Origin: Zobellia galactanivorans
GTDB taxonomy: Bacteria > Bacteroidota > Bacteroidia > Flavobacteriales > Flavobacteriaceae
Assembly (NCBI RefSeq): GCF_000973105.1
Contig: NC_015844.1
Coordinates: 2,600,501 to 2,664,500, forward strand
DNA: 64,000 bases
Direction: 5' to 3'
In this document: piece after piece, positions 19,201 to 47,716 of the stretch
Layout: each line of letters begins with the position of its first letter
Numbering within the stretch: the first letter of the stretch is position 1
Notes under the pieces: generated by a model
Seen by the model: the letters and a program-made list of their open reading frames with translations, nothing else
What the model was told of the DNA's origin: nothing
The model's database searches: none
Translations under genes and position numbers: made by a program

Positions 19201-19243
19201 TGACATATATCATATTTTGAACAGCTTAACAAAGTTAAGTTTG
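19201..19243 (+). promoter_or_regulatory. FNR-type site and promoter of hemN
   Basis: TGACATATATCA (19201-19212) fits the palindrome TGA-N6-TCA, and a perfect -7 box TAAGTTTG begins exactly 35 nt further on (19236-19243). The palindrome centre lies about 40 nt before the inferred transcription start, the place for a class II Crp/Fnr activator. The same spacing recurs at six other promoters in the window. Confidence 0.75.
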
Positions 19244-19263
19244 TATAAAACAAGATACGATTT

Positions 19264-20625
19264 ATGTGCAGTCTAGTTCAAAAATACAATGTGGCGGGTC
19301 CGAGATATACCAGTTACCCCACTGTTCCTTATTGGAATATGGATACTTTTTCTAGCAAGAAGTGGCAATCGACCCTGATCCAAAGTTTTGAGGAAAGCAA
19401 TGCGAAAGAAGGTATTAGCCTGTACATACACTTGCCCTTTTGTGAAAGTATGTGTACGTTTTGTGGTTGCCATAAACGCATAACCCAAAGGCATGAGGTT
19501 GAGGAACCGTATATTCGTACCGTATTGAAGGAGTGGAAATTGTATTGCGACCTCTTTTCTCAGCGGCCCATAATAAAAGAACTTCATTTGGGGGGCGGAA
19601 CCCCTACTTTCTTTACACCACAGAACCTCCAGAACTTGATCAATGGAATTTTTAGCATGGCCAAAAAGGCCGAAGATTACGAATTTAGTTTTGAGGGACA
19701 TCCGAACAACACCACCAAAGAACATTTACAGGCACTGTACGATGTAGGGTTTAGGCGGGTCAGTTTTGGGGTGCAAGATTACAATATCAAAGTACAACAG
19801 GCCATCCATCGCATACAGCCTTTTGCGAACGTAAAAAACGTAACGCAATGGGCCAGGCAGATCGGTTATACATCGATCGGCCATGATATTATTTTCGGAC
19901 TTCCTTTTCAGAAGGAGGAACATGTTCGCGAAACTATATTGAGAACCAAGGAACTGCGCCCAGATCGTTTGGCCTTTTATAGCTATGCCCATGTGCCATG
20001 GTTAAAAGGTAATGGACAAAGAGGGTATAAAGATGCCGATTTGCCTTCGGCCGAAGAGAAGCGCCAACAGTATGAAACCGGTAAGGCCTTGCTCGCCGAG
20101 GTCGGATACCGTGAAATCGGTATGGACCATTTTGCCCTTCCTACCGATGCGTTGTATAAATCTATGCAATCGGGCGAACTGCACCGTAACTTTATGGGGT
20201 ATACGGCTTCTAAGACCCAGGCAATGATTGGCTTGGGAACCTCTAGTATCAGTGATAGTTGGTATAGCTTCGCCCAAAATGTTAAAGGTATCGAAGAGTA
20301 CCAACATTTGGTGGAAAACAACGTTATTCCAGTGTATCGAGGTCATATTCTCACCGATGAAGATCGCGTGATAAGAAAGCATATCCTAAATTTGATGTGC
20401 GGGTTTAAAACCTCTTGGTCGCTACCGGGCCTTCGTTTTGAGGCAATTGACGAGGTGCGGGAAAGGTTGCGTGAAATGGAACAGGATGCTTTGGTGGTTG
20501 TCGTTGAAGATGGGGTAGAGGTCACCGAAAAAGGACGCCCGTTCATTCGTAACATTTGTATGGCATTTGATGTGCTTTTACATAAAAAGGAACCGGAAAA
20601 AAGATTATTTTCAATGACAATTTAA
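19264..20625 (+). CDS. hemN: Oxygen-independent coproporphyrinogen III oxidase
   Basis: A 453-residue radical SAM enzyme of haem synthesis that decarboxylates coproporphyrinogen III to protoporphyrinogen IX without oxygen. The cluster motif CESMCTFCGC (from about residue 60) has the CxxxCxxCxC pattern of true HemN, unlike the HemW-type paralogue at 59458. The nearby GGGTPTF motif binds SAM, and the C-terminal HemN domain is present. The promoter carries an FNR-type site, matching induction at low oxygen when the oxygen-dependent enzyme fails. The universal stress gene 30 nt downstream probably shares the transcript. Confidence 0.95.
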   Translation: MCSLVQKYNVAGPRYTSYPTVPYWNMDTFSSKKWQSTLIQSFEESNAKEGISLYIHLPFCESMCTFCGCHKRITQRHEVEEPYIRTVLKEWKLYCDLFSQRPIIKELHLGGGTPTFFTPQNLQNLINGIFSMAKKAEDYEFSFEGHPNNTTKEHLQALYDVGFRRVSFGVQDYNIKVQQAIHRIQPFANVKNVTQWARQIGYTSIGHDIIFGLPFQKEEHVRETILRTKELRPDRLAFYSYAHVPWLKGNGQRGYKDADLPSAEEKRQQYETGKALLAEVGYREIGMDHFALPTDALYKSMQSGELHRNFMGYTASKTQAMIGLGTSSISDSWYSFAQNVKGIEEYQHLVENNVIPVYRGHILTDEDRVIRKHILNLMCGFKTSWSLPGLRFEAIDEVRERLREMEQDALVVVVEDGVEVTEKGRPFIRNICMAFDVLLHKKEPEKRLFSMTI

Positions 20626-20655
20626 TAGGCCCTAATCTTCTAAAATAGATATATT

Positions 20656-21477
20656 ATGAAAAAAATTATAGTACCTCTAGATTTCTCCGAACAGTCTGAA
20701 TATGCCCTTAAGGTTGCCGTATCGTTGGCAAAAAAACACGATTCGGAAATACTGGCCTTGCACATGCTGGAACTCAATCAGGCCATGATTACTTCTTCCG
20801 AAGGCTTTCACCCAGAACAGACCGTTTTTCTGATAAAACTGGCAGAGAAAAGGTTTAACGAGTTTTTAAAGAAACCCTATTTGGAAGGTGTGAAGGTCAC
20901 GCCCATCATCAAACACTACAAAGTCTTTAGTGAGGTGAATGCGATTGCCGAAGAACACAAGGCCGAGCTTGTTGTTATGGGCTCACATGGTACCGATGGC
21001 CTCGAAGAGATTTTTATAGGGTCGAATGCCGAAAAGGTAGTGCGAAATTCCGAAGTGCCCGTATTGGTCATTAAGAACGAAATAGCCAATTTTAGTATAA
21101 ACCGTTTTGTCTTTGCCTGCGATTTTAGGGAAGAAAGCATCCCGGCCTATAAAAAGGCCAAGGCATTTGCCGATTTATTAAAAGCCGATTTAGACTTGGT
21201 GTATATCAATACACCGGGCGATAATTTTTTAAGTTCAGCGGATATCTACAAACGTGTAAACGCTTTTATCGGAAAGGTAAACGAAGCTTTACAGGTAGAG
21301 ATTTACAACGATTATAGTGTAGAGCGCGGGGTGTTGAATTATAGCGAAAGCAACAGTGCCGATGCCATAGGGATACCTACCCATGGACGTAGGGGACTAT
21401 CCCATTTCTTTATGGGAAGTATTGGGGAAGACATCGTGAACCACTCCAAGATACCCGTGGTTACTTTTAAAATATAG
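20656..21477 (+). CDS. Universal stress protein with two UspA domains
   Basis: 273 residues forming tandem UspA domains. The first (about 1-145) starts KKIIVPLDFSEQSEYAL and ends with the nucleotide-binding-like signature MGSHGTDGLEEIFIGSNAEKV. The second (about 150-273) is degenerate in its start but keeps THGRRGLSHFFMGSIGEDIV near the end. It lies 30 nt behind hemN, ahead of a strong terminator, so it is the last gene of the FNR-controlled hemN unit. A second USP gene at 47744 has its own FNR-type site, suggesting a role in low-oxygen adaptation. Confidence 0.9.
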   Translation: MKKIIVPLDFSEQSEYALKVAVSLAKKHDSEILALHMLELNQAMITSSEGFHPEQTVFLIKLAEKRFNEFLKKPYLEGVKVTPIIKHYKVFSEVNAIAEEHKAELVVMGSHGTDGLEEIFIGSNAEKVVRNSEVPVLVIKNEIANFSINRFVFACDFREESIPAYKKAKAFADLLKADLDLVYINTPGDNFLSSADIYKRVNAFIGKVNEALQVEIYNDYSVERGVLNYSESNSADAIGIPTHGRRGLSHFFMGSIGEDIVNHSKIPVVTFKI

Positions 21478-21504
21478 ATGCACTTAAACTTTATGCAACT
21501 ATAA

Positions 21505-21539
21505 GGCCGGTCCGTTTCATACGGACCGGCCATTTTTTT
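21505..21539 (+). terminator. Intrinsic terminator of the hemN-usp unit
   Basis: GGCCGGTCCGT, loop TTCAT, ACGGACCGGCC form a perfect 11-bp GC-rich stem followed by ATTTTTTT. It lies 28 nt after the usp stop and between two convergent genes. Confidence 0.92.
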
Positions 21540-21550
21540 ACCGGTTTGGG

Positions 21551-23047: not shown

Positions 23048-23090
23048 TGATATATATCATGTTTTTCACCTTGTATAGCGCCTATTTTTG
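23048..23090 (+). promoter_or_regulatory. FNR-type site and promoter of the nos operon
   Basis: TGATATATATCA (23048-23059) is a perfect palindrome. A perfect -7 box TATTTTTG starts 35 nt after the palindrome start (23083-23090). The first ATG follows at 23119. The spacing is the same as at hemN and five other promoters. Confidence 0.78.
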
Positions 23091-23118: not shown

Positions 23119-23631
23119 ATGAAAATAGTAGTTAAAAGTGTAGTGCTGATTTTTTCGCTTTTGCTTACGGCCTGTGGAGGCAAGGAAGAAAAGAAGAAAG
23201 AAGGATTTAGCGTAGATCGTGAAAAGGCAAAAACGGAAAAGCCGGCTGAGGCGGTACCGGCTACCAGTGCGGTACCGGCATCTCAACGTGTCGATCTTGA
23301 GAACAAGGGGGTCGGCCCGGTAAAATCGGTGACCCTGTCTCCCGATATCGACGAGGCCTTGGCCAAAAAGGGGGAGGAAATCTATACCCAAATGTGTTTG
23401 GCCTGCCATAGGGTCGATAAAAAATTCATTGGTCCGGCACCAACGGGTATTTTAAAAAGACGTAGCCCCGAGTGGGTCATGAACATGATCCTAAACCCAG
23501 AGGTAATGGTAAAAGAAGATCCCTTGGCAAAAGAGCTTATTGCCGAATTCAACGGAGCTCCGATGTCGAACCAGGGGTTGACCGAAGACCAGGCTCGAAG
23601 CGTACTGGAATTTTTTAGAACGCTAGAGTAG
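23119..23631 (+). CDS. Lipoprotein c-type cytochrome of the nos operon
   Basis: 170 residues. A lipoprotein signal ends LLLTAC with the lipidated Cys at 19, then a charged Lys/Glu-rich linker and a monohaem domain with CLACH (C93, C96, H97). The likely axial Met lies in APMSNQG near residue 153. It is the first gene of the nos operon, 65 nt ahead of nosZ, and probably donates electrons from the quinol/cytochrome chain to nitrous oxide reductase. Membrane-anchored cytochromes are common in clade II nos clusters. Confidence 0.88.
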   Translation: MKIVVKSVVLIFSLLLTACGGKEEKKKEGFSVDREKAKTEKPAEAVPATSAVPASQRVDLENKGVGPVKSVTLSPDIDEALAKKGEEIYTQMCLACHRVDKKFIGPAPTGILKRRSPEWVMNMILNPEVMVKEDPLAKELIAEFNGAPMSNQGLTEDQARSVLEFFRTLE

Positions 23632-23696: not shown

Positions 23697-25658
23697 ATGA
23701 AAAAATATACCTTTCATCTATTCGCGATTTTAGGGATGGCTCTGTTCCTCTCTAGTTGCGGTGACCAGAACGGCAAGGCGTCCTCAAATAGCGGACTATC
23801 GTCGAACAATGCGGAAAAAGTATACGTTGCCCCGGGAGAGCATGATGAGTTTTATGCTTTTATGTCGGGCGGGTATAGCGGAAACCTTACGGTTTACGGA
23901 CTTCCTTCGGGAAGAATGTTCAAAGAGATTCCCGTTTTTTCGCAGTTTCCTACCTCGGGTTATGGATATTCGGAAGAAACAAAACCCATGTTGAACACAT
24001 CTTTCGGTTTCGTTCCTTGGGATGATGCCCACCACCCCGATATTTCCCAGACCAATGGGGAGTTAGACGGTAGATGGATATTTATTAATGGAAACAACAC
24101 ACCAAGAATTGCCCGGATCAGCTTGAGTACGTTCGAGACCGAGGAAATTATGGAGGTACCCAACAGTGCAGGGAACCACAGTTCTTCTTTTGTTACCGAA
24201 AATACCGAGTATGTAGTTGCCGGAACCCGTTTTTCGGTGCCTATTCCCCAAAGGGATATGCCCATTAACGAGTACAAGGGGAATTTTAGGGGCTCGCTTT
24301 CCTTTATAAGCGTTGATCCTGAAGATGGACACATGGATCTAAAGTTTCAAATTTTGATGCCAGGGTTTAATTACGACCTGTCGCATCCGGGTAGGGGCAA
24401 ATCCCATGGATGGTTTTTCTTTACGACCTACAATACCGAAGAGGCAAATTCACTTTTAGAAGTAAATGCTTCGCAAAACGATAAAGATTTTATCGCTGCG
24501 GTGAATTGGAAGAAAATTGAAGAGTATGTGGCAAATGGAGGGGGTACAATGATGCCGGCCGAATATGCCCACAATGTGTACGATGAAGCAAGCCATACCG
24601 CGACTTCCACCCTAAAAAAGGAAGTCTTGACCATAGACCCGACCAAAGTGCCGGGAGCCGTTTACTTCTTGCCTACACCAAAATCGCCCCATGGGGTAGA
24701 TGTTGATCCTTCGGGAGAGTATATCATTGGTAACGGAAAGCTATCGGCCGATCTTACGATCCATTCCTTCGATAAAATGGTGGCTGCGATCGAAGCTAAA
24801 AAATTCGACGGAGAAGCTTATGGCATCCCCATCTTGAAATTCGACGATGTACTTGCCGGAACCGTGAAAAGTGGCGGATTGGGCCCCTTACATACCGAGT
24901 TTGATGGAGAGGGAAATGCCTATACTACCTTCTTTATTTCCTCTGAAGTGGTGATGTGGAAGTTGGGTACATGGGAAGTTATCGATAGAAAACCTACTTA
25001 TTATTCCGTGGGACACTTAATGATACCTGGGGGGAACTCTAGGAAGCCCTTTGGTAAATACGTGGTGGCCATGAACAAAATAACCAAAGATAGGTACCTG
25101 CCCACAGGTCCCGAACTGGAACATTCCGCCCAGATTTATGATATTTCCGGAGATAAAATGGAGCTTATTTACGATTTTCCCACCCACGGTGAACCCCATT
25201 ATGCAGCAGGTATACCCGCTGAACTTTTGGCCCCGAAATCTAAGAAGATCTATAAGCTTTCCGAAAATAAACACCCCTTTGCCGCAACCGGCCCCGCCGA
25301 TACTAAAGTGGTAAGGGAAGGGAATGAGGTTCATATTTACATGTCTATGATCCGAAGCCACTTTACCCCTGATAATATAGAAGGTATTAAAGTGGGCGAC
25401 AAGGTGTATTTTCATGTCACCAACCAAGAACAAGATTTTGATGTGCCCCATGGGTTTGCCATGATCGGCGCGAATAACTCCGAATTGCTAATTATGCCAG
25501 GGCAGACCAAATCTCTGGTATGGGAGCCTAAAAAAGTAGGGGTATGGCCATTTTATTGTACCGATTTCTGTTCCGCTTTGCACCAAGAAATGCAAGGTTA
25601 TATACGGGTGTCACCGGCAGGTTCAAATACTGAGCTGTCGTGGTCCCTAGGAGAATAA
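23697..25658 (+). CDS. nosZ: Nitrous oxide reductase, Sec-type (clade II)
   Basis: 653 residues. The copper enzyme reduces N2O to N2 as the last step of denitrification. The N-terminus is a lipoprotein-type Sec signal (LFLSSC) with no twin-arginine motif, which marks the clade II (atypical) enzyme. The beta-propeller with the CuZ site includes the His-rich DAHHPD (about 104-109) and HGVDVDPSGEY. The C-terminal cupredoxin domain has the CuA motif with C621, C625, H629 and M632 (CTDFCSALHQEM). Accessory nosL, nosD, nosF and nosY follow. No nitrite or nitric oxide reductase is in the window, so this may be a partial denitrifier that scavenges N2O. Confidence 0.97.
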   Translation: MKKYTFHLFAILGMALFLSSCGDQNGKASSNSGLSSNNAEKVYVAPGEHDEFYAFMSGGYSGNLTVYGLPSGRMFKEIPVFSQFPTSGYGYSEETKPMLNTSFGFVPWDDAHHPDISQTNGELDGRWIFINGNNTPRIARISLSTFETEEIMEVPNSAGNHSSSFVTENTEYVVAGTRFSVPIPQRDMPINEYKGNFRGSLSFISVDPEDGHMDLKFQILMPGFNYDLSHPGRGKSHGWFFFTTYNTEEANSLLEVNASQNDKDFIAAVNWKKIEEYVANGGGTMMPAEYAHNVYDEASHTATSTLKKEVLTIDPTKVPGAVYFLPTPKSPHGVDVDPSGEYIIGNGKLSADLTIHSFDKMVAAIEAKKFDGEAYGIPILKFDDVLAGTVKSGGLGPLHTEFDGEGNAYTTFFISSEVVMWKLGTWEVIDRKPTYYSVGHLMIPGGNSRKPFGKYVVAMNKITKDRYLPTGPELEHSAQIYDISGDKMELIYDFPTHGEPHYAAGIPAELLAPKSKKIYKLSENKHPFAATGPADTKVVREGNEVHIYMSMIRSHFTPDNIEGIKVGDKVYFHVTNQEQDFDVPHGFAMIGANNSELLIMPGQTKSLVWEPKKVGVWPFYCTDFCSALHQEMQGYIRVSPAGSNTELSWSLGE

Positions 25659-25772: not shown

Positions 25773-26417
25773 ATGAAAAAGGCAAGTATACTTATGATAT
25801 TGGGGTCTTTATGTTTGTTGGGACTGTTTCAGTTTCCACTTTGGAATATTATGCTGGGCGCCCCGCAATATCCCGAGCCCTTAGGTATGAACATCCATAT
25901 TACGGGCATTCAAGGGGTATCTGAATTCGACCTTCAGAACATTGACGGACTCAACCACTATATTGGTATGAAGACGATTCCCAAAGCTGGCGAGATGTGG
26001 GAGTTCGATATATTTCCTATAGTAATAATCGCCATGGTACTCTTAGGGGTACTATTGGGGATACTCGGTTTTATAGGTAAAATTGACTACCGATTTTTCT
26101 TGGGTTGGTTCTTACTAATGTCTATCTTAGGAATCATGGGGATGTACGATTTTAACCTATGGCTGACCGATTACGGTTCAAACCTAGATCCTCACGCCAT
26201 AATAAAGGTGGTCAATGAAGACGGTACCCCCATGAGCTATAAACCGCCACTTTTTGGGTACAAAAAATTGTTGAATTTTGATGTAAGTTCAATGCCGGCC
26301 ACAGGAGCATGGATGATGTTCGTAGGTATGTTGTTGACGGTAATCGCATTTTTTGTAGGATGGAGGTGCAAAAATTCCGTTTCATCTGAAAAAAAGCATA
26401 AATTGGTTACACCATGA
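25773..26417 (+). CDS. Membrane protein of clade II nos clusters (NosB-like)
   Basis: 214 residues with about four membrane helices: an N-terminal helix (about 5-25), two helices near 85-105 and 110-130, and one near 180-200. A periplasmic loop of about 60 residues (IHITGIQGVSEFDLQNID) lies between the first two. Proteins of this type occur between nosZ and nosL in Bacteroidota nos operons, and a membrane gene called nosB holds this place in other clade II clusters. I did not recognise a catalytic motif. A role in electron transfer or copper delivery to NosZ is inference from position. Its stop overlaps the nosL start as ATGA. Confidence 0.6.
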   Translation: MKKASILMILGSLCLLGLFQFPLWNIMLGAPQYPEPLGMNIHITGIQGVSEFDLQNIDGLNHYIGMKTIPKAGEMWEFDIFPIVIIAMVLLGVLLGILGFIGKIDYRFFLGWFLLMSILGIMGMYDFNLWLTDYGSNLDPHAIIKVVNEDGTPMSYKPPLFGYKKLLNFDVSSMPATGAWMMFVGMLLTVIAFFVGWRCKNSVSSEKKHKLVTP

Positions 26418-26860
26418 AAAGTTGTAAAATACTCATTTTGATGGGGCTTTTGGTAATTTCCGCTTGTAAAGGCGAACCGAAACCCATAGCATACGGTGGC
26501 GAGGGTTGCCAATTTTGTAGCATGACCATTGTCGATAAGCAACATGCTGCCCAATTTATGACGAAGAAAGGAAGAAGTTACTCCTTTGATGCGGTAGAGT
26601 GTATGCTGAACTACTTGAAAGATGTAGATCCTGAATCGGTAGCCCTTTATCGAGTGAACGATTACAATAACCCCGGGGTCTTTATCGATGCCACCAAGGC
26701 TACGTATTTGATCAGTAAGAACATACCCAGTCCCATGGGGGCGTTTTTGACGGCGTTTGCCAATGAAGAAGAAGCGAGTAGCGCCCAGTCGGGAAATACG
26801 GGTACGATTTATTCATGGCCCGAGCTCAGAGATAAATTTGAAAAAGATAACCCATTTTAA
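26414..26860 (+). CDS. nosL: NosL copper chaperone lipoprotein
   Basis: 148 residues with a lipoprotein signal (LLVISAC, lipidated Cys18) and the NosL copper-binding motif CQFCSM (C32, C35, M37). NosL is an outer- or inner-membrane-anchored protein that binds Cu(I) for assembly of the NosZ copper centres. The start overlaps the stop of the preceding membrane protein (ATGA), so translation is coupled. Length fits the family. Confidence 0.92.
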   Translation: MKSCKILILMGLLVISACKGEPKPIAYGGEGCQFCSMTIVDKQHAAQFMTKKGRSYSFDAVECMLNYLKDVDPESVALYRVNDYNNPGVFIDATKATYLISKNIPSPMGAFLTAFANEEEASSAQSGNTGTIYSWPELRDKFEKDNPF

Positions 26861-26873
26861 ACCCCAAGAAACT

Positions 26874-27335
26874 ATGATAGTAAAGTTAGAGCTTTCGGAG
26901 TGCATGGCTTTTTTAAGTGAACACAGTATCGGTCATTTAGGTTACATTTCGGGCAGGAGCCCTTACATTGTGCCAATAACCTATTATTATGATCAAGAAA
27001 ATAAAAGTATACTGAGTTATTCGGCCTTGGGCCATAAAATCAATGCAATGAGGAGCTACGAACATGTAGCCCTTCAAGTTGAGGATATCGATTCTATGTC
27101 TGAGTGGCGTTCGGTTTTGGTCAATGGTCGCTTTGAAGAATTAAAAGGCAGTACGGCCAAAAAAAGCCTTCATACTTTTGCCCAAGGCGTACAGGATACG
27201 ATTTTGCGAACCCAAGGCGAGAAGCCTGAATTCATAAAGGATTTCTCGAGCAAATTGGAAATGGAGACCCTGCCTATCGTTTTCCGAATTCATATTTCTG
27301 ACATTGTAGGCAAATACAGAACCGTGCGTAGCTAA
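26874..27335 (+). CDS. Pyridoxamine 5'-phosphate oxidase-like FMN-binding split-barrel protein
   Basis: About 153 residues forming a split beta-barrel: GHLGYISGRSPYIVPITYYYD and ILSYSALGHKINAMRSYEHVALQV near the start are typical of the PNPOx-like (pyridox_oxidase_2) family that binds FMN or haem. I use the ATG at 26874, 14 nt after nosL; an in-frame earlier start would overlap nosL extensively. Its place between nosL and nosD is unexpected. A flavin or haem protein helping electron flow or nitrosative stress resistance is possible, but this is inference. Confidence 0.75.
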   Translation: MIVKLELSECMAFLSEHSIGHLGYISGRSPYIVPITYYYDQENKSILSYSALGHKINAMRSYEHVALQVEDIDSMSEWRSVLVNGRFEELKGSTAKKSLHTFAQGVQDTILRTQGEKPEFIKDFSSKLEMETLPIVFRIHISDIVGKYRTVRS

Positions 27336-27581
27336 GGTTTACTTCCAGTTTGCGCCATACCCGAAGTATAACACCGTTTTAAATCGCACCGATAGAGGTA
27401 GGTTTCAATCGTTTCATACTTATGGGCCTGTATTTTATTGGCTCTTGGTGTCGTTTTAAATCATGTTTTTATACAGATATAACGGGAGGAGTGTTCACTA
27501 GTACCATATCGCCTGCCTTTGTCGATAGAAGTGAAGGTGGGGCAAACGAAACCACGAGGTTGCCAAACTTCTCAATTAAAG
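27336..27581 (+). other. Gene-free gap inside the nos operon
   Basis: About 246 nt without a convincing gene separate the split-barrel gene from nosD. Open frames that cross it show no recognisable features and overlap nosD. No terminator, strong promoter or FNR-type palindrome was seen. Confidence 0.3.
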
Positions 27582-34008: not shown

Positions 34009-34032
34009 CGCATCAAAAATACACTATTAACT

Positions 34033-35320: not shown

Positions 35321-35363
35321 CAAATATCAAGAATAGGGCTTCTTTAAAATATGAACATTATCA
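35321..35363 (-). promoter_or_regulatory. FNR-type site and promoter of the CoA-transferase/globin unit
   Basis: On the minus strand TGATAATGTTCA (35352-35363) is followed at the usual 35-nt offset by GATATTTG (35321-35328), one mismatch from TAnnTTTG. The ATG is at 35301. The palindrome is imperfect, so it is the weakest member of the set. Confidence 0.55.
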
Positions 35364-38647: not shown

Positions 38648-40066
38648 TTATTTATAACTACGCGGAGCCAAAAAGCGGGCCGTCGTGGTTTCTATCAGTT
38701 TATCGTCACTATACACCCCGATTTTTAGGTTGTTTTTATCACCGCTCAGGGCCGAGGCCTTGATTTCAATGAACAAGGTGCCTTCTGCCAAGGCTTCTGG
38801 TGGCACGGAAAAATTCTCGTTACGGACCAGTTTGATATTGCCTTCGTGCGACATCAATTTAAAATTCACGTTGTCGACCGATTTGGTCGTCTTGTTCAAT
38901 AGTTTATAGGTATATACATTGCTGATAATATTACCTTCCTTGTGTTCGTAAAGTTGACCTGGTAACCGCAAAATATTGGCTTCAAGGTCGTTTCTCAAGA
39001 ACATCATACCGATAAGCACACCGGTTAAAATCACCAATACGGCCGTATACCCTTTTAAACGGGGCGTAAATTTGAACTTTTCCTTTTTTGTGATTTCGTC
39101 TTCACTGGCATAGCGGATCAAGCCTTTGGGCAGGTTTACCTTTTCCATGATTGTATCGCATTCGTCGATACAGGCCGTACAATTGACACATTCCAATTGG
39201 GTTCCATTTCTAATATCTATTCCGGTGGGGCATACGTTCACACATTGAAAACAGTCGATACAATCGCCATGGCCCAAGGCCTCTCGGTCTTCGTTCTTAC
39301 GCCATTTTTTTCTTCCGTTCTCACCTTCGCCCCTCTTGTGGTCATAGGCCACTACAATAGATTTGTTGTCGAGCAACACCCCTTGCATACGGCCGTAAGG
39401 GCAGGCGATGATACATACCTGTTCCCTAAACCACGCGAATACAAAGTAAAAGACAGCGGTGAATATCAATAAAGACAACATGGTGCTCAGGTGCTCGGTC
39501 GGGCCATCGGTAATGTATTGTATCAAACGGTCACTTCCGATAAGGTAAGCCAGAAAGACATTGGCTATAATGAACGATATGATAAAAAAGATAAACCATT
39601 TGAGCGTGCGTTTCCTGATTTTTTCGGCATTCCAAGGTTGCCGGTCGAGTCGCATTTGCGCGCCTCTGTCCCCATCGATCCAATACTCGATCCTTCGGAA
39701 GACCATCTCCATGAAAATGGTCTGTGGGCACATCCATCCGCAAAAAATACGACCGAAGGCCACGGTAAAAAGTGCAATAAAGACCACCCCGATAATCATC
39801 GAAATAACAAAGAGATGAAAATCTTGGGGGTAGAATGGAAAGCCAAAGATGTTGAACCGTCTTTCGAGTACGTTGAACATCAAGAATTGGTTGCCATTTA
39901 TCTTTATAAACGGAGAGGCAATCAAGAAGGTCAGAAGAACATAACTGACATATTTACGATATTGGTAAAATTTGCCACTGGGTTTTTTAGGAAAAACCCA
40001 TGCGCGTTTACCATCTTCTTTAATGGTGCCTATTGAATCTCTGAAATTGTCTTGGTCTTGTGCCAT
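38648..40066 (-). CDS. ccoG: CcoG (FixG/RdxA) cbb3 oxidase maturation ferredoxin
   Basis: 472 residues with membrane helices in the N-terminal part, the CGWMCPQ motif (about 109-115), and two 4Fe-4S ferredoxin clusters (CIDCFQCVNVCPTG, then CVNCTACIDECD; about 258-302). A further helix and a C-terminal immunoglobulin-like FixG domain follow. CcoG is a Cu(II) reductase that supplies Cu(I) to the oxidase. It comes 45 nt after ccoP in the operon. Confidence 0.94.
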   Translation of the reverse strand: MAQDQDNFRDSIGTIKEDGKRAWVFPKKPSGKFYQYRKYVSYVLLTFLIASPFIKINGNQFLMFNVLERRFNIFGFPFYPQDFHLFVISMIIGVVFIALFTVAFGRIFCGWMCPQTIFMEMVFRRIEYWIDGDRGAQMRLDRQPWNAEKIRKRTLKWFIFFIISFIIANVFLAYLIGSDRLIQYITDGPTEHLSTMLSLLIFTAVFYFVFAWFREQVCIIACPYGRMQGVLLDNKSIVVAYDHKRGEGENGRKKWRKNEDREALGHGDCIDCFQCVNVCPTGIDIRNGTQLECVNCTACIDECDTIMEKVNLPKGLIRYASEDEITKKEKFKFTPRLKGYTAVLVILTGVLIGMMFLRNDLEANILRLPGQLYEHKEGNIISNVYTYKLLNKTTKSVDNVNFKLMSHEGNIKLVRNENFSVPPEALAEGTLFIEIKASALSGDKNNLKIGVYSDDKLIETTTARFLAPRSYK

Positions 40067-40111
40067 TTTATGTTCGCTTTATCAGCTTTCGGGGCCTTGG
40101 TCCCGCAATAT

Positions 40112-41065
40112 TCAGTTCACGGTTACCGAAGTGGAGTCGATGACCTGTTCGGTACTGTTTTCTTGTGCCGGTGCTGGCTGTTCAGTAGCGTTCGGGTCTA
40201 CCCATAAATCACCTTCGGCGGGTTTTGGATTGGCCGGTGTTGTACCTTGAAAGCTTAGTACGTAGCTAGCCACCTGGGCAATTTCCGCTGGTTTTAAGGT
40301 TTGCTTCCAGGCAATCATACCTTTGCCATCACGACCACCTTCTGAAATGGTATGGAAAACGTTTTTGATGCCTCCACCCAAAATCCAATGTTGATCGGTA
40401 AGGTTCGGTCCGATACCTCCACCACCATCGGCCATATGACAGGCGATACAGTTGCTCTCAAAAATCGTCTGTCCGGCTTTAAGGTCGCCCGCATCGGTAA
40501 GTAGTTCTACCGTATTGGCATCCACAAGTCCCTTAGCGGTTTTTTTGTAGGCCTCGATCTCTAGTTGCGCGGCGGCCACCTCTTGTTCGTATTCTTGGTC
40601 TTGGTTATAGTCGTTGAACACGTGAAAGCGTGCCAAATAGACTACGGCAAAGACAATGGAGGCATAGAAAAGATATACCCACCACGGCGGAAGATTGTTA
40701 TCTAGTTCGCGAATACCGTCGTAATTGTGGTCAAGGATGATTTCTTCCTCTTTTTCAATGGGTTTTGAACCAAGTAGTTTTTGGTAGACTTTTTGGCCCC
40801 ATTCCCATTGGAACGATTTGCTCTTGGCGGCGATATAGCGCTCTTGGCCTTCTTTGGAAAGCGTTTGGAACATTACGTTTTCAATAGCCCTGGTAATTAC
40901 CGCTATAACGATAAGCAAGAACAGGATGAATACGAGAAACACCTGTACCATCGGGTATTTTATAAAGGCCGGAATCTCTCCTGAATCAACAAAGAATTCC
41001 GTCAGGCCGAATATTAAAAAGAAAATCAGTGGTATTTTAATCCACCAAGTCGATGTATTTTTCAT
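40112..41065 (-). CDS. ccoP: cbb3-type cytochrome c oxidase subunit III, monohaem
   Basis: 317 residues with two membrane helices near the N-terminus (about 10-28 and 40-60) and one near 130-148, preceded by the CcoP motif YDGIRELDNNLPPWW. One cytochrome c domain follows with CIACH (about 206-210) and the likely axial Met in GKGMIAWK. Proteobacterial CcoP normally has two CxxCH motifs; only one is present here. The C-terminal tail is rich in Pro, Glu and Thr. The start overlaps the ccoQ stop as ATGA. Confidence 0.92.
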   Translation of the reverse strand: MKNTSTWWIKIPLIFFLIFGLTEFFVDSGEIPAFIKYPMVQVFLVFILFLLIVIAVITRAIENVMFQTLSKEGQERYIAAKSKSFQWEWGQKVYQKLLGSKPIEKEEEIILDHNYDGIRELDNNLPPWWVYLFYASIVFAVVYLARFHVFNDYNQDQEYEQEVAAAQLEIEAYKKTAKGLVDANTVELLTDAGDLKAGQTIFESNCIACHMADGGGGIGPNLTDQHWILGGGIKNVFHTISEGGRDGKGMIAWKQTLKPAEIAQVASYVLSFQGTTPANPKPAEGDLWVDPNATEQPAPAQENSTEQVIDSTSVTVN

Positions 41066-41253
41066 AATTCTAGGTTTTGTTGGTTATCTTCTTCCAAAGG
41101 CAATTCGCTCACTTCTTTTATGTACGATTTCGAGGCGGTGAAGACCCACCAGAACAACAATGTGAAAAACACAAAGAAGATAAGTAACGATATCATGGGG
41201 TAGGTTGCTACGCCATCGATACTTTCCATGTAACCTTTTACAAATTTGAGCAT
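41062..41253 (-). CDS. ccoQ: CcoQ-like small cbb3 oxidase subunit
   Basis: 63 residues with one membrane helix (about 20-40, ISLLIFFVFFTLLFWWVF) and an acidic tail, the usual form of CcoQ. It stabilises the interaction of CcoP with the core. It is placed between the fused ccoNO and ccoP, with 5 nt and -4 nt spacing. Confidence 0.88.
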   Translation of the reverse strand: MLKFVKGYMESIDGVATYPMISLLIFFVFFTLLFWWVFTASKSYIKEVSELPLEEDNQQNLEL

Positions 41254-41258
41254 GATCT

Positions 41259-43463
41259 TTAGTTTTTGTTGTCAGATAATATTTCACCGGTTTCCTTGAC
41301 CTTGATATCGGTTCCTAACCTTTGTAGGTAGGCGATTAAGGCTACGATTTCTCGGTCTCTCATTTCTATGAACTCTTCGCCGTTTTCTGCGGCATTGGCT
41401 TTATCGGCCTCATAGTTCTTTGCAAAATCGGGATCCGTATACAGGTTTTTCTCGATTTTTTCTGCCTGTGCATCCATAAGGGCATCGGCGTTTTCAATCT
41501 CCTCTTCGGTATAGGGAACCCCTAAGGTGACCATGGCTTTCATTTTTTTCTGTATATCACTGCGGTCGTGCTTGTTGCGCACTAGCCATGAATATGAGGG
41601 CATGATAGAGCCTGAAGAGGTACTTTGTGGGTCGTACATGTGGTTCAAGTGCCAGTTGTCGGAATATTTACCGCCAACCCTGAGCAAATCGGGACCGGTA
41701 CGTTTACTTCCCCAAAGGAAGGGGTGGTCGTATACGAATTCACCTGCCTTTGCATATTCACCATAACGCTCTACCTCGCTTCTGAAGGGGCGTACCATTT
41801 GTGAGTGGCAACTTACACAGCCTTCACGGATATAGAGGTCACGGCCTTCCAATTCTAAAGGCGTATAGGGTTTTACACTGGTTATGGTAGGGATGTTCGA
41901 TTTTACCAAAAGTGTAGGTACGATCTGGATAATACCTCCGATCAAAATGGCTACGGTGGCCAAAATGGTCAACTGAATAGGCTTGCGCTCCAACCAAGTA
42001 TGGAAGGTTTCCCCAGCGGTTCTGTGTTTTGAAACGCGGGTCAAGGCAGCGGCTTCGGCCAATTCGTCTTCTATAGTGCTACCGGAGCGTATAGTTCTCA
42101 CTACGTTATAGATCATTACACAGGCCCCGGTGATATATAGGGTGCCACCAATGGCGCGCATCCAGTACATCGGCATGATTTCGTGTACGGTCTCTAAGAA
42201 GTTACCGTAAACCAAGGTGCCATCTGGGTTGAAGTCTTTCCACATCAAGGCTTGGGTAAATCCGGCCACATACATAGGCAAGGTATATAGAATGATACCC
42301 AAGGTACCGATCCAGAAGTGGAAGTTTGCCAAACTGGTCGAGAACAATTTGTTCTTGGTCATTTTAGGTACCAACCAATAGATCATACCAAAGGTCAAGA
42401 AACCGTTCCAGGCCAAGGCCCCTACGTGTACGTGGGCAATGATCCAGTCACTAAAGTGTGCAATGGCATTTACGTTTTTAAGTGAAAGCATAGGGCCTTC
42501 AAAAGTGGCCATACCATAACCGGTAATCGCTACCACCATAAATTTTAAGACGGGATCGGTACGAACCTTGTCCCAGGCACCACGCAAGGTTAAGAGTCCG
42601 TTGATCATACCTCCCCAAGAAGGGGCCAAAAGCATGATGGAAAACGCAACCCCTAGGTTTTGTGCCCAATCGGGTAATGCGGAATACAATAAATGGTGAG
42701 GTCCGGCCCAGATGTAAATAAAGATCAAAGACCAAAAGTGGACTATAGACAATCTATACGAGTATACCGGTCTGTTCGCGGCTTTTGGAACGTAGTAGTA
42801 CATAAGGCCCAAAAACGGTGTGGTCAAGAAGAAGGCTACCGCGTTATGTCCGTACCACCACTGCACCAAGGCATCTTGAACGCCCGCATAGACCGAATAA
42901 CTTTTTAGGGCGCTTACGGGAAGTTCCAGGTTATTGAAAATATGCAGAACGGCTACGGTAACGAAAGTTGCCAGATAAAACCAAATGGCCACGTAAAGGT
43001 GACGTTGTCTCCTTTTAAGCATGGTACCGATAAGGTTGGCACCAAATGCGACCCATACCAAGGTAATGGCGATATCTATGGGCCATTCAAGTTCGGCGTA
43101 TTCTTTGGTACTGGTGTATCCTAACGGCAAGGTAATGGCCGCCGATACGATAATGGCCTGCCAGCCCCAAAAATTGAACTTACTCAAGAAGTCACTGTAC
43201 ATACGGGCCTTGAGCAATCGTTGCGTTGAATAATAGACCCCCGCGAAAATAGCATTTCCTACAAATGCGAAAATCACCGCATTGGTGTGTAATGGGCGCA
43301 AACGGCCAAAACTTAACCATGATATTCCGTCGGTCAAGTTGGGAAACATGAACATGAAGGCTAGCAATAAGCCTACGGACATACCCACAATACCCCAGAA
43401 CATGGTTGCATAGAGGAAATTTTTCACGATTTTGTTATCGTAATAAAACTGCTGTACTTCCAT
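41259..43463 (-). CDS. ccoNO: Fused cbb3-type cytochrome c oxidase subunits I and II (CcoN-CcoO)
   Basis: 734 residues. The N-terminal part (about 1-480) is CcoN with its membrane helices and haem/copper His motifs (RPLHTNAVIFAF, WWYGHNAVAFF, GPHHLLYSALP, IIAHVHVGALAWNG). After a linker and one helix (about 505-530) the CcoO part has the monohaem CVSCHSQMVRPFRSE (about 560-574) and the Met ligand near GSIMPSY. The fusion of N and O is typical of Bacteroidota. The complex reduces O2 to water with high affinity and pumps protons. It lies directly after ccoS. Confidence 0.96.
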   Translation of the reverse strand: MEVQQFYYDNKIVKNFLYATMFWGIVGMSVGLLLAFMFMFPNLTDGISWLSFGRLRPLHTNAVIFAFVGNAIFAGVYYSTQRLLKARMYSDFLSKFNFWGWQAIIVSAAITLPLGYTSTKEYAELEWPIDIAITLVWVAFGANLIGTMLKRRQRHLYVAIWFYLATFVTVAVLHIFNNLELPVSALKSYSVYAGVQDALVQWWYGHNAVAFFLTTPFLGLMYYYVPKAANRPVYSYRLSIVHFWSLIFIYIWAGPHHLLYSALPDWAQNLGVAFSIMLLAPSWGGMINGLLTLRGAWDKVRTDPVLKFMVVAITGYGMATFEGPMLSLKNVNAIAHFSDWIIAHVHVGALAWNGFLTFGMIYWLVPKMTKNKLFSTSLANFHFWIGTLGIILYTLPMYVAGFTQALMWKDFNPDGTLVYGNFLETVHEIMPMYWMRAIGGTLYITGACVMIYNVVRTIRSGSTIEDELAEAAALTRVSKHRTAGETFHTWLERKPIQLTILATVAILIGGIIQIVPTLLVKSNIPTITSVKPYTPLELEGRDLYIREGCVSCHSQMVRPFRSEVERYGEYAKAGEFVYDHPFLWGSKRTGPDLLRVGGKYSDNWHLNHMYDPQSTSSGSIMPSYSWLVRNKHDRSDIQKKMKAMVTLGVPYTEEEIENADALMDAQAEKIEKNLYTDPDFAKNYEADKANAAENGEEFIEMRDREIVALIAYLQRLGTDIKVKETGEILSDNKN

Positions 43464-43465
43464 AA

Positions 43466-43675
43466 TTATACCTGTTTATTTAGTTGGATTTTTTCTTTGT
43501 TTTTCTTGATGGAGACATCTTTTTGCTTCTTTACCAGCTCATCTTCAAAAAGCATACGTACCGATGGGGTATACGAATCATCGTACTGACCGCTCTTTAC
43601 CGAAACGATAAATGCAATGAAAAATAAGACCGCAACTAGAACGCTGATGGCCAATAACACATAAATAACACTCAT
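43466..43675 (-). CDS. ccoS: CcoS cbb3 oxidase assembly protein
   Basis: 69 residues: an N-terminal helix (about 2-25, IYVLLAISVLVAVLFFIAFI) then the CcoS motif SGQYDDSYTPSVRMLFED. It helps insert haem and copper cofactors. It is the first gene of the cco operon, 20 nt after the promoter box and 2 nt before ccoNO. Confidence 0.92.
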   Translation of the reverse strand: MSVIYVLLAISVLVAVLFFIAFIVSVKSGQYDDSYTPSVRMLFEDELVKKQKDVSIKKNKEKIQLNKQV

Positions 43676-43694: not shown

Positions 43695-43737
43695 TAAAAC
43701 TACGGCGTGTGTACCCGATTAAATATGACTTATATCA
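43695..43737 (-). promoter_or_regulatory. FNR-type site and promoter of the cco operon
   Basis: On the minus strand TGATATAAGTCA (43726-43737) is followed at 35 nt by TAGTTTTA (43695-43702), one mismatch from TAnnTTTG. The first gene ccoS starts at 43675. A high-affinity oxidase under an FNR-type activator fits induction at low oxygen. Confidence 0.72.
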
Positions 43738-44309: not shown

Positions 44310-44345
44310 TTATACTTAAACGAGTTTGGTGGATTGTTCGTTTTA

Positions 44346-44353: not shown

Positions 44354-44422
44354 ACTTTTTAAACGGATCCATCCCGTTTTTTTACTATGAAGTTACAAAT
44401 GTGGACGCTATAACTTGCAATA

Positions 44423-46819
44423 TCAGTCAATGTTCCTGCCTATAAAATTAGTGGCTATCGTGGTAAACGCTACCACACTAATGGAGCTCAGGGGCATTAA
44501 GATGGCCGCAATAACCGGCTCTAATTGCCCTGTAACCGCAAAATAAAGTCCAATTAGGTTATAGGCCAAAGATAGGATAAAACTCATTTTTATGACCTTC
44601 ATGGCTTTTTTAGAGGCCCAGATGTACTGATGTAGCTGTTTGAATTTGCTGGCATCCATAATGCCATCACTGGCAGGTGAAAATACATTGATGTTCTCGG
44701 AAATGGCAAGGCCTACTTCGGCTTGGGCCAAGGCACCGGCGTCGTTAAGCCCGTCACCTACCATCAGTACTTTTTTGCCCTGTTCTTGTAATGTTTTAAT
44801 AAATTCGAGCTTATCTTGTGGTTTTTGGCCAAAATACAGGGGGGTAAGTTTTGGTAACAATTTTTCAAGGCGCTGCTTTTCACCTTCGTTATCGCCCGAG
44901 AGTACGGCTACATTAAAATCTTTTGACATTTTTTCGAATACTTGGGAAACCCCTTCGCGGTATTCATTGTGAAAAATGTACTTGCCCTTATACGTGTCGT
45001 TGCTGCTGATATGAACCGCCGTGGTAAGGGCATCCGTAGTTTGTCCGTTACCTACAAAGTCGGCCGATCCCGCTTTAATGTGTTCGTTGTCCTTAGACCC
45101 TTCTACGCCTTTGCCGATATGTTCTTCGTATTCGTCAAGGGTAACGATATTCTCTTCGGCCAACAGGTTGTAAAGGGAGCGGCTCAAGGGGTGGTTCGAC
45201 CCCCTTAAGGTATTCTTCAATAGGGAGGCCTCGGCTTCCGTAAGGGGCATGCCCTCATAGGTGGCCGTGCTCTTTTTAGCAGTGGTTATCGTACCTGTTT
45301 TATCAAAAATAGCCGTATCTATTTGGGCCAATTGCTCAATGGTTTGGGTGTCTTTTAAATAAAATTTCTTCCGTCCGAAGATTCGGAGCATGTTGCCCAG
45401 GGTAAAGGGTGACGAAAGGGCAATGGCGCATGGGCAGGCAATGATCAAGACTGCGGTAAAAACGTTCAAGGCCTTGCTCGGGTCAAAATAAAGCCAGAAA
45501 ATGGCCGATAAAAAAGCAATGCTGAGCACGGCTATGGTAAACCTTCTGCCGATACTGTCGGTCAGGGTCTGAAACTTACTGGCCTTGTCTTCCTGAAAAA
45601 CGGAATTGCTCCACAATTGGGTGAGGTAACTTTGAGAGACCGATTTTAGGGCTTCCATCTCTATGGCTCCTTGGAGTTGTTTTCCTCCGGCAAAGACTTT
45701 TTCCCCAGATTCTTTTTTTACCGGTTCCGATTCGCCCGTAACAAAGCTATAGTCGATACGGGCCTGCCCCTTGATGAGGATGCCGTCAACGGGAATCAGT
45801 TCTTCGTTTCGGATCAGTAGGCGGTCGCCGCGTTCAATATCGTGTACTTGGGCGGTTTCTTCCTTGCCGCCTTTAGTGATGCGGGTTATAGCTATAGGAA
45901 AATATGATTTGTAGTCACGTTCGAAGGAAAGGAAGGAGTAGGTCTTTTGCTGAAAGAACTTTCCTAAGAGCAAGAAAAAGACCAATCCCGTAAGCGAATC
46001 GAAAAACCCGCTTCCCCAATCAAAGACAATGTCGAGGGTGCTGCGAACAAAGAGCACTAAGATCCCAAGGGCAATGGGTACGTCAATATTCAACATTTTA
46101 CTACGGATGCCTTTGTAGGCCGAAATAAAATAATCCCTGCCGGCATAAAGAAGTACCGGTAGTGAAAACAAGAATATAAGCCAATGAAAGACCGGTTCGT
46201 ATTTGTTGAGCCAGTATTCGCCGCCGGATGCATTGCTTGACGATAGGTCGAAATAGTCGGGAAACGACAGGAACATCACATTGCCAAAGGCGAAACCTGC
46301 TACCCCAAGTTTATAGATGAGGCTACGGTCGGCACTTTTCTTCTTTTTGTCGAAATCATCAAGGGAGATATAGGGTTCATAACCGATCCGGGCCAGCAAC
46401 ACCACTACTTCCTTTAGTGAAATATCGGAACTGCTATATGTAATCCGTACGGTCTTTTTGGGGAAATTTACTTGGGCGCCCTTAATATAGGGGTTTAGCT
46501 TGTTCAGGTTCTCAAGAACCCAGATACACGAGCTACAGTGAATATGCGGAATATAGAGGTTTATGATCTGTAAGTCACCGTCGTTGAACTCAATAAGTTT
46601 TTCGGCGATTGGAGTTGAATCTAAAAAATCGTATCTTCCATCAATTGATTTCGGGGATGCCCCGGCCGCAGATTGCAAGTCGTAATAGTAATCGAGGTCA
46701 TGGCCCGATAATATTTCGTACACGGTCTTGCAACCGTGGCAGCAAAAATTTTTATCGTCTAGTGCGATTGGGTTATTGCCACAGTCGTCGCCGCAATGGA
46801 AACAGTTGTTAGAATTCAT
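44423..46819 (-). CDS. ccoI: CcoI-type copper-translocating P-type ATPase
   Basis: About 798 residues. The N-terminus has a Cys-rich metal-binding domain (CFHCGDDCGN and CCHGCKTVYEIL), then an HMA domain with CSSC (about 82-85). The P-type ATPase core has the CPC transport motif (ACPCAIALSSP), phosphorylation motif DKTGTIT and hinge GDGLNDAGAL. The two N-terminal Cys clusters and the cco neighbourhood favour CcoI/FixI, which exports copper to mature cbb3 oxidase. I use the ATG at 46819, because an in-frame TTG at 46846 would lie upstream of the inferred transcription start of its FNR-type promoter. Confidence 0.93.
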   Translation of the reverse strand: MNSNNCFHCGDDCGNNPIALDDKNFCCHGCKTVYEILSGHDLDYYYDLQSAAGASPKSIDGRYDFLDSTPIAEKLIEFNDGDLQIINLYIPHIHCSSCIWVLENLNKLNPYIKGAQVNFPKKTVRITYSSSDISLKEVVVLLARIGYEPYISLDDFDKKKKSADRSLIYKLGVAGFAFGNVMFLSFPDYFDLSSSNASGGEYWLNKYEPVFHWLIFLFSLPVLLYAGRDYFISAYKGIRSKMLNIDVPIALGILVLFVRSTLDIVFDWGSGFFDSLTGLVFFLLLGKFFQQKTYSFLSFERDYKSYFPIAITRITKGGKEETAQVHDIERGDRLLIRNEELIPVDGILIKGQARIDYSFVTGESEPVKKESGEKVFAGGKQLQGAIEMEALKSVSQSYLTQLWSNSVFQEDKASKFQTLTDSIGRRFTIAVLSIAFLSAIFWLYFDPSKALNVFTAVLIIACPCAIALSSPFTLGNMLRIFGRKKFYLKDTQTIEQLAQIDTAIFDKTGTITTAKKSTATYEGMPLTEAEASLLKNTLRGSNHPLSRSLYNLLAEENIVTLDEYEEHIGKGVEGSKDNEHIKAGSADFVGNGQTTDALTTAVHISSNDTYKGKYIFHNEYREGVSQVFEKMSKDFNVAVLSGDNEGEKQRLEKLLPKLTPLYFGQKPQDKLEFIKTLQEQGKKVLMVGDGLNDAGALAQAEVGLAISENINVFSPASDGIMDASKFKQLHQYIWASKKAMKVIKMSFILSLAYNLIGLYFAVTGQLEPVIAAILMPLSSISVVAFTTIATNFIGRNID

Positions 46820-46843
46820 ATTACACTTGCTAATACCTGTTTG

Positions 46844-46917
46844 CAAAGATGCAAAAGGTAGGTATTAAAAAATATGACAATTGTCAGGTTTAACACGGTC
46901 GGTGAAGGTTATCTTTG
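46844..46917. promoter_or_regulatory. Divergent FNR-type promoter between ccoI and crp/fnr
   Basis: The perfect palindrome TGACAATTGTCA (46875-46886) has a -7-like box exactly 35 nt away on each side: CATCTTTG on the minus strand (46844-46851) for ccoI and a perfect TATCTTTG on the plus strand (46910-46917) for the crp/fnr gene. One activator dimer could therefore serve both directions and autoregulate. Confidence 0.75.
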
Positions 46918-46955
46918 CATTGTCAGGTATAAGTAGTTTGCATAGTCAGGTATAA
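46883..46955 (+). repeat. Three direct copies of GTCAGGTWTAA in the crp/fnr leader
   Basis: GTCAGGTTTAA (46883-46893), GTCAGGTATAA (46922-46932) and GTCAGGTATAA (46945-46955) are near-identical. The first is the right half of the FNR-type palindrome with its flank. The other two lie downstream of the inferred start, between promoter and ATG. Confidence 0.7.
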
Positions 46956-46966
46956 ATAATAGTGTT

Positions 46967-47656
46967 ATGAGCAGCAGATGTGAAAATTGTATAATACGAC
47001 AATTTAATTCGTTACGTGCGATGAGCAAGGAAGAATTAAAGAAAGTATCCGATTCCAAGATTTCCAAAAAACTTAAAAAAGGCGAGGCCCTATTTCAAGA
47101 GGGTGAGCAACTTAATGGGGTTTTTTGCGTAAGGACCGGGGTTTCAAAGCTGTCGAAACTGAGTGCGAACGGAAAGGATCAAATCGTAAAACTGGCCAGC
47201 AAGGGCGAGGTAATGGGCCAGCGTGCCGTGATTGCCGAAGAAGTTACCAATTTGAGCGCAATCGCGGTAAGTGATATGGAAGTCTGTTTTATTCCAAAGG
47301 ATGTGATTTCCAATACGCTCGATCAAAACCCGAACTTTGCGGTTGAGGTCTTACGGCATATGGCCCACGACCTAAAGGAAGCAGATGACGTTATCGTAAA
47401 CATGTCTCAAAAAACGGTGAAACAGCGAATGGCCGAAGCCTTTCTATACCTGAGAAAAAACTATGGGGACGATACCGATGGTTTCTTGAATCTGGTACTC
47501 TCTCGTGAAGATTATTCAAATGTGGTAGGAACCGCTACCGAATCCTGTATCCGGATTATTTCGGAGTTCAAGAAGAAAGGCTTGATCAAAACTTCCGGAA
47601 AAAAAATAGGGGTGCTCGACGAGCGCAAACTCTTGGAACTCGCCGAAAGATTCTAA
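46967..47656 (+). CDS. Crp/Fnr-family regulator, probable oxygen-responsive regulator of this window
   Basis: 229 residues: cyclic-nucleotide-binding-like domain (about 20-130), dimer helix, and winged helix (about 150-222). C5 and C8 (CENC) resemble the start of the FNR cluster motif and C107 could be a further ligand, but the third N-terminal Cys of E. coli FNR is missing. The recognition helix contains TESCIR, keeping the Glu and Arg four apart that contact GA in FNR and CRP, consistent with TGA-N6-TCA sites. It is divergent from ccoI and shares the central site. It is the natural candidate to bind all the palindromes described. Confidence 0.88.
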   Translation: MSSRCENCIIRQFNSLRAMSKEELKKVSDSKISKKLKKGEALFQEGEQLNGVFCVRTGVSKLSKLSANGKDQIVKLASKGEVMGQRAVIAEEVTNLSAIAVSDMEVCFIPKDVISNTLDQNPNFAVEVLRHMAHDLKEADDVIVNMSQKTVKQRMAEAFLYLRKNYGDDTDGFLNLVLSREDYSNVVGTATESCIRIISEFKKKGLIKTSGKKIGVLDERKLLELAERF

Positions 47657-47673
47657 ACCGGACATTCCAAAAC

Positions 47674-47716
47674 TGACATATGTCATAGTTTACCTATGGT
47701 TTTGCATCTACTTTTA
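47674..47716 (+). promoter_or_regulatory. FNR-type site and promoter of the second usp gene
   Basis: TGACATATGTCA (47674-47685) is a perfect palindrome; TACTTTTA (47709-47716), one mismatch from TAnnTTTG, starts 35 nt after it. The ATG is at 47744. Confidence 0.75.

Follow-up and report, generated by a model that had tools for sequence, protein, structure and literature searches.

FNR of Escherichia coli, one of the closest described counterparts of the system considered here, recognizes the site TTGATN4ATCAA and, at class II Crp/Fnr promoters, has this site centred at -41.5; at such promoters the activator touches RNA polymerase through its activating regions. The recognition helix of FNR carries the motif E-x-x-S-R (E209, S212, R213), three cysteines lie in its N-terminal loop and the fourth is C122, an O2-labile [4Fe-4S] cluster governs its dimerization, and genes such as cbb3 and hemN are targets in other FNR systems. 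Bacillus subtilis Fnr reportedly has a [4Fe-4S] ligand set unlike that of the E. coli protein, in which it would resemble the regulator described below. For Bacteroidota, a study on Flavobacterium psychrophilum places the TAnnTTTG box of sigma-A promoters at -12 to -5 and reports that cbb3 and haem genes are induced when O2 is limiting; its main text does not contain the word 'fnr' (PMC9723704). Porphyromonas gingivalis CrpPg (2GAU), HcpR and PgRsp belong to the same superfamily and phylum as that regulator, and HcpR and PgRsp bind haem (PMC12040651). A literature search, partial in coverage and hence no proof of absence, returned no FNR of the kind described here for Bacteroidota. The present analysis concerns DNA of Zobellia galactanivorans, from a large bacterial family whose members live mainly in water; the window is the whole analysed stretch of 64,000 nucleotides (contig NC_015844.1, positions 2,600,501 to 2,664,500), in which seven promoters, including that of an FNR-like regulator gene at 46967 (below, fnr), combine a palindrome with a TAnnTTTG-like box at one fixed distance.

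A search of the window found the palindrome TGAN6TCA at all six positions listed by an earlier sequence-only reading (19201, 23048, 35352, 43726, 46875 and 47674). With the palindrome's first T as reference and counting towards the gene, a -7-like box starts at offset 35 in seven of seven promoters, the palindrome at 46875 serving both directions. The boxes are TAAGTTTG (19201, plus strand), TATTTTTG (23048, plus), GATATTTG (35352, minus), TAGTTTTA (43726, minus), TATCTTTG (46875, plus), CATCTTTG (46875, minus) and TACTTTTA (47674, plus). Three match TAnnTTTG in full and four have one mismatch. The geometry had been called invariant, which holds for the spacing and not for the box, four of the seven being off-consensus and that of ccoI starting with a base other than T in 73 of 73 loci (see below). 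The palindrome alone was not enriched (18 in the window against 14.25 expected by chance), and plain TGAN6TCA was rejected as too loose a criterion. The E. coli-type site TTGAN6TCAA was likewise dropped, since with at most one mismatch it showed no enrichment in the window (36 against 41.4 expected). At offset 35, the 36 site-directions of the 18 palindromes contained 7 boxes matching at 5 or more of 6 bases, compared with a mean of 0.37 and a maximum of 3 at the other 75 offsets. The earlier statement that equal spacing is unlikely by chance is thus confirmed: the binomial chance that any one of 76 offsets collects 7 boxes from 36 site-directions is about 1e-6, base composition near promoters being disregarded. 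The site consensus is TGAYN4RTCA, mostly followed by T, and not the FNR consensus TTGATN4ATCAA. All six window sites have AT-rich cores. The weakest, at 35352, reads TGAACATTATCA, with one TGAY half only, and is kept in the sister genome (G182), the sole relative compared for it. The features are as follows.

19201..19212, plus strand: putative FNR-type site TGACATATATCA upstream of hemN (palindrome and box search)
19236..19243, plus strand: -7 box TAAGTTTG of hemN (offset 35, exact genome pair)
19264..20625, plus strand: hemN, oxygen-independent coproporphyrinogen III oxidase (NCBIfam TIGR00538, 437.7 bits, above cut-off)
23048..23059, plus strand: putative FNR-type site TGATATATATCA upstream of the nos operon (palindrome and box search)
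23083..23090, plus strand: -7 box TATTTTTG of the nos operon (offset 35, exact genome pair)
23119..23631, plus strand: cytochrome c gene, first of the nos operon (PF00034)
23697..25658, plus strand: nosZ (PF18764, nos_propeller)
26414..30305, plus strand: nosL, nosD, an ABC ATPase whose position suggests nosF, and another open reading frame (PF05573, PF05048, PF00005)
33616..35301, minus strand: CoA-transferase (34033-35301; PF13336, PF02550) with globin
33616-34008, minus strand: the globin, a group III truncated haemoglobin (phmmer match to 2ig3, 5e-12)
35321..35328, minus strand: -7-like box GATATTTG, one mismatch (offset 35; G182)
35352..35363, minus strand: putative FNR-type site TGATAATGTTCA in minus-strand letters, one half not TGAY (same in G182)
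38648..43675, minus strand: cbb3 oxidase genes ccoS (43466-43675), fused ccoNO (41259-43463), ccoP-like (40112-41065) and ccoG-like (38648-40066) (PF03597, PF14715, PF11614; NF011053)
43695..43702, minus strand: -7-like box TAGTTTTA, one mismatch (same in G182 and loci L030-L033)
43726..43737, minus strand: putative FNR-type site TGATATAAGTCA in minus-strand letters, upstream of ccoS-ccoNO (kept in G182 and L030-L033)
44423..46846, minus strand: ccoI-type P-type ATPase (TIGR01525, 339.3 bits, slightly below the cut-off of 346.25)
46844..46851, minus strand: -7-like box CATCTTTG of ccoI (offset 35)
46875..46886, no strand: common central site TGACAATTGTCA between divergent ccoI and fnr (palindrome and box search)
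46910..46917, plus strand: -7 box TATCTTTG of fnr (offset 35, exact genome pair)
46967..47656, plus strand: FNR-like Crp/Fnr regulator with C5xxC8, C54 and C107 (PF00027, PF13545; alignments; structure model)
47674..47685, plus strand: putative FNR-type site TGACATATGTCA upstream of usp (palindrome and box search)
47709..47716, plus strand: -7-like box TACTTTTA, one mismatch (same in G182, L030, L032 and L033; TAGTTTTA in L031)
47744..48649, plus strand: universal stress protein gene, usp (PF00582)

The name ccoI rests on the near-match to TIGR01525 together with the neighbouring genes. Its listed TTG start falls within the -7 box at 46844-46851, and the ATG at 46819 appears the likelier start. 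In the nos region, the Pfam search gave no match for 25773-26417 or 29523-30305.

The same spacing stands out far beyond the window. The sequence-only reading had proposed a genome scan as a check, and such a scan was run over all 5,521,712 bases (the window being 2600501-2664500) with the pattern box-N8 to N38-TGAN6TCA, which covers 31 spacings. It returned 68 box-site pairs, 18 of them at spacer 23, the equivalent of offset 35, against a mean of 1.67 and a maximum of 4 at the other 30 spacings (Poisson P about 3e-13). All 18 exact pairs have the form TGAYN4RTCA. With one mismatch allowed, matches rose to 53, compared with 7 for the reversed pattern. Among 60 genomes of the same family, 478 exact pairs at this spacing were spread over 57 genomes, the reversed pattern giving 9; the ten next larger spacings together gave 219 (21.9 each) and the ten next smaller 179 (17.9 each). 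Phylum-wide, at least one exact pair was present in 124 of 296 genomes. The highest number, 28 exact pairs in 3.7 Mb (megabases), was seen in G271, a genome of family f46, far outside the family of the window; its homologue of the 46967 protein (L141) has the four-cysteine pattern described below.

Comparison of orthologous promoters pointed in the same direction. For hemN, TGAYN4RTCA with a box at offset 35 was present in 27 of 30 loci (the best 30 of 42 matches, each from a different genome of the same family); the box was exact in 26, and exact boxes at other offsets averaged 0. The nosZ set, the best 30 of 48 matches in 47 same-family genomes, had site and exact box at offset 35 in 29 of 30 loci; in the remaining one, L222, the match begins at base 214 of the contig, and the promoter is probably cut off. 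In 80 loci around the regulator gene, ccoI, ccoS, ccoN and usp were located by tblastn. A ccoI homologue was found in 78, divergent from fnr in every case, and 73 of these 78 had site and box (at least 5 matches) at offset 35. The corresponding counts were 75 of 75 for ccoS and 77 of 78 for usp, and other offsets averaged 0.4 to 1.7 such boxes in these three sets of promoters. Upstream of fnr, a site within 400 nucleotides was accepted only if one box scored at least 4 of 6, whatever the adjacent genes; on this basis 72 of 80 loci had a qualifying site, and in 53 of these 72 a box facing fnr matched at 5 or more of 6 bases.

The sister genome kept six of six window sites and seven of seven boxes, including the off-consensus bases, with one base changed in the central site. 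Across the 73 ccoI loci the first base of the box was C in 62, A in 6, G in 5 and T in 0. This retention and the first-base pattern of ccoI indicate that the off-consensus boxes are conserved rather than decayed. The common ccoI/fnr site thus shows a conserved asymmetry, in that the ccoI box never starts with T and the fnr box always does (53 of 53 loci). A separate peculiarity is the fnr leader (46918-46960), which is about 23 nucleotides longer than in many relatives and contains two near copies of the stretch GTCAGGTATAA; a tandem-repeat search of the leader found no array.

The box position published for F. psychrophilum, -12 to -5 (PMC9723704), together with offset 35 places the palindrome at -47 to -36 and its centre at -41.5. 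The earlier estimate of about 40 nucleotides before the start, and the class II assignment built on it, agree well with this. The predicted activator site of the window promoters would therefore occupy the class II position, at which a good -35 or -33 element should not be needed. A profile was built from the 46 of the 53 own-genome one-mismatch matches whose palindrome is intact. It shows a T-rich run 3' of the site, with T at -35 in 35 of 46; the base directly following TCA is T in 35 of 46 and A in 5 of 46. TTTG at -36 to -33 occurred in 0 of 46 sites, and the idea of a -33 TTTG element beside the site was rejected. Most simply, the activator would replace the -33 contact. A comparison with E. 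coli yielded a rough match only: at nirB, the hexamer TAAGGT follows TTGATTTACATCAA at offset 34, and TGAN6TCA is absent from the dmsA stretch.

The protein encoded at 46967 has both Crp/Fnr domains, PF00027 and PF13545, above cut-off. Its structure model (mean predicted local distance difference test score, pLDDT, 92.1) folds like 2GAU, with a template modelling (TM) score of 0.88, and like holo-FNR 5e44 (Foldseek TM 0.82), both by query length. CrpPg (2GAU) is the best match in sequence as well as structure, and differs in having no cysteine at C54 or C107 in the alignment. When the protein was aligned to Aliivibrio fischeri FNR, C5 and C8 formed the CxxC and C107 (VCFIP) corresponded to the VCEIP cysteine, while an Asn took the place of the third cysteine of the loop. 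The 81 close orthologues, all at least 77% identical, never vary at C5, C8, C54 or C107 and always have Asn at position 14. Among 50 homologues drawn phylum-wide (L110-L159), the four cysteines occur together in 46; L147 and L149 have none of the four, although L149 has a cysteine one position ahead of C107, C54 is missing from L157, and L159 retains just C8 and C107. This is the fair count, and not the alignment of 35 sequences in which all four cysteines are invariant, a selected set from which L147, L149, L157, L158, L159, L110 and ten near-duplicates were excluded. In the recognition helix, E192 and R196 are kept, but all 81 close orthologues have Ile where FNR has serine, which fits a site that differs from the FNR one in its outer base. 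The NCBIfam Fnr model scored 104.5 bits, with a cut-off of 228. The domains of E. coli-type FNR are thus present, and the three-cysteine loop, the recognition helix, the site and the NCBIfam score all depart from it; the cysteines, the helix and the score rule out membership in that group.

In the model, C54 lies in the strand 51-57 and C107 in the strand 104-110, which we take to be neighbours from the topology of the cNMP (cyclic nucleotide monophosphate) barrel. C54 is probably the relocated fourth ligand of a [4Fe-4S] cluster. A Crp/Fnr paralogue in the same genome (L002:1156-1911, minus strand) adjoins a major-facilitator transporter, MFS_1 by Pfam and NarK-like by our reading, and has matches in 9 of 60 same-family genomes, its own included. 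All 12 sequences of its clade, which stand for 11 distinct genes (L002 and L164 being one gene), carry C-x2-C-x4-C; 11 of 12 have a counterpart of C107 and 0 of 12 one of C54. This distribution suggests that C54 and a third cysteine in the loop substitute for each other.

We therefore favour, with a probability of roughly 0.8, the reading that the 46967 protein is the low-oxygen activator of this flavobacterium and acts in the class II manner. A dimer would bind TGAYN4RTCA centred at -41.5. The site would stand in for the -33 element, and polymerase with the main sigma factor would use the TAnnTTTG box, whose T lies exactly 35 nucleotides from the first T of the site (-47 to -12). Besides its own gene, the regulator is predicted to activate usp and the genes for the cbb3 oxidase, the copper pump of this oxidase, nitrous oxide reductase and oxygen-independent haem synthesis. 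This agrees with the target list of the sequence-only reading, except that CoA-transferase/globin, behind the weakest site (35352), is only a probable further target. At 46875, one palindrome would presumably serve one polymerase at a time, and since two polymerases can hardly use one dimer together, fnr and ccoI transcription probably alternate. Oxygen is most likely sensed by an O2-labile [4Fe-4S] cluster on C5, C8, C54 and C107, with C54 in place of the third N-terminal cysteine of FNR.

The earlier observation was right and general, and its interpretation as an FNR-type regulon was right in kind: the regulator is of Crp/Fnr type, and a variant with its own site and cysteine pattern rather than a textbook FNR. 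With E. coli-type FNR it shares fold and domains, the CxxC, the VC.IP cysteine and the -41.5 centre. It differs in having C54 instead of the third N-terminal cysteine, Ile for Ser in the recognition helix, a TGAYN4RTCA site followed by T rather than A, and a Bacteroidota -7 box instead of the -10 hexamer; this box, and cbb3 and haem genes as likely low-oxygen targets, are common ground with F. psychrophilum (PMC9723704). On balance we lean towards Bacteroidota having an FNR class of their own, with an O2-labile [4Fe-4S] cluster held by the CxxC, the barrel-strand C54 and the VC.IP cysteine, and with base-locked TGAYN4RTCA class II promoters; the third cysteine would have moved from loop to barrel, the paralogue clade keeping the three-cysteine loop. 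With a promoter rule that is base-exact and family-wide, low-oxygen regulons, including nosZ control, could be recognized straight from genome sequences. Confirmation of the relocated cysteine would reveal a second way to build an oxygen sensor of the FNR type and would offer a clean means of testing which ligand positions the mechanism needs.

Several observations weigh against the activator and its cluster as proposed. Four of the seven window boxes are off-consensus, and at the ccoS promoters one other offset had 37 boxes, compared with 75 at offset 35. No qualifying site was found within 400 nucleotides of fnr in 8 of 80 loci, and 14 had a ccoI-facing box only. Of the 296 genomes of the phylum, the 67 that encode a homologue of the 46967 protein (E value 1e-30) have 5.9 pairs on average and the other 229 have 0.59; this difference favours the proposed activator, but kinship confounds it, since 50 of these 67 genomes come from the class of the window, and a few of the 67 represent paralogues (e.g. 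G088). Three same-family genomes (G053, G130 and G234) carry 3-7 pairs with no homologue at this E value, which suggests that other Crp/Fnr proteins use such sites. As to the cluster, the four cysteines do not always go together, as L159 illustrates, and a paralogue in the same genome with REC and Crp/Fnr domains has a counterpart of C107 only.

The cluster is also the subject of one alternative: the regulator might respond to redox state or nitric oxide through cysteine thiols, zinc, haem or another ligand instead of [4Fe-4S], leaving the geometry unaffected. The missing third N-terminal cysteine in 81 of 81 orthologues, the Fnr score far under its cut-off, and haem binding by HcpR and PgRsp of the same superfamily (PMC12040651) would fit such a sensor. 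We nevertheless consider it unlikely, given the FNR-like CxxC, the VCFIP cysteine aligned to VCEIP of FNR, the joint presence of the four cysteines in 46 of 50 homologues, and the absence of all four in L147 and L149, in the latter with the shifted cysteine.

A second alternative concerns the identity of the regulator. The class II architecture could be shared by several Crp/Fnr regulators, and the window genes could be controlled jointly or by another paralogue, such as the one at 4.53 Mb with REC and Crp/Fnr domains or the transporter-linked one at 1.93 Mb, and not mainly by the 46967 protein. The genome has 17 cNMP-binding matches, 15 of them above cut-off; the recognition helix of the REC-Crp/Fnr protein is similar; and the three genomes named above have pairs with no homologue. 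The 18 exact pairs, moreover, include GC-richer cores at 3.82, 4.01 and 4.53-4.57 Mb. Cores of this type, such as TGACCTAGGTCA, cluster at 4.52-4.57 Mb around the REC-Crp/Fnr gene, which is overlapped by a gene for a PAS/GAF histidine kinase (the two genes at L026:11336-15659, 4528335-4532658 of the genome). A TGACAAAGGTCA site with a box at offset 35 lies upstream of the kinase gene, and further sites of the cluster precede hsp20, usp, ClC, MlaE, GH15 and ATP-synthase-type genes, the downstream gene being taken as the longest open reading frame starting at most 400 nucleotides away, so that short genes are missed. These sites probably belong to a second regulator, the REC-Crp/Fnr protein, which may control the surrounding island of stress genes; its structure model, made from a single sequence, had a mean pLDDT of 35.7 and was set aside as poor. 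The 35-nucleotide geometry is thus not unique to the 46967 protein, while the genome-wide excess predicted by the sequence-only reading held up. As an account of the window genes, all the same, joint control or control by another paralogue is decidedly improbable. The cores of the six window sites are AT-rich, the ccoI, ccoS and usp sites remain linked to the 46967 orthologue, and the transporter-linked paralogue, the one of the two that was searched for in other genomes, occurs in only 9 of 60 of the same family, compared with the geometry at hemN in 27 of 30 loci and at nosZ in 29 of 30.

Chance, or boxes picked to match by the sequence-only reading, could draw on the loose box consensus and the unenriched palindrome, but is ruled out for practical purposes by the genome and family scans, whose single-spacing peaks do not depend on that reading's choice, by the offset scan of the window, and by the spacing kept in orthologous promoters.

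Sites with a box at offset 35 also precede three tiny open reading frames of 37-42 residues (L020:2680-2808 and L020:3107-3235, plus strand, and L021:2871-2984, minus strand), two with an exact box and one with one mismatch. By eye, their products look like single membrane helices, making them candidate low-oxygen small proteins.

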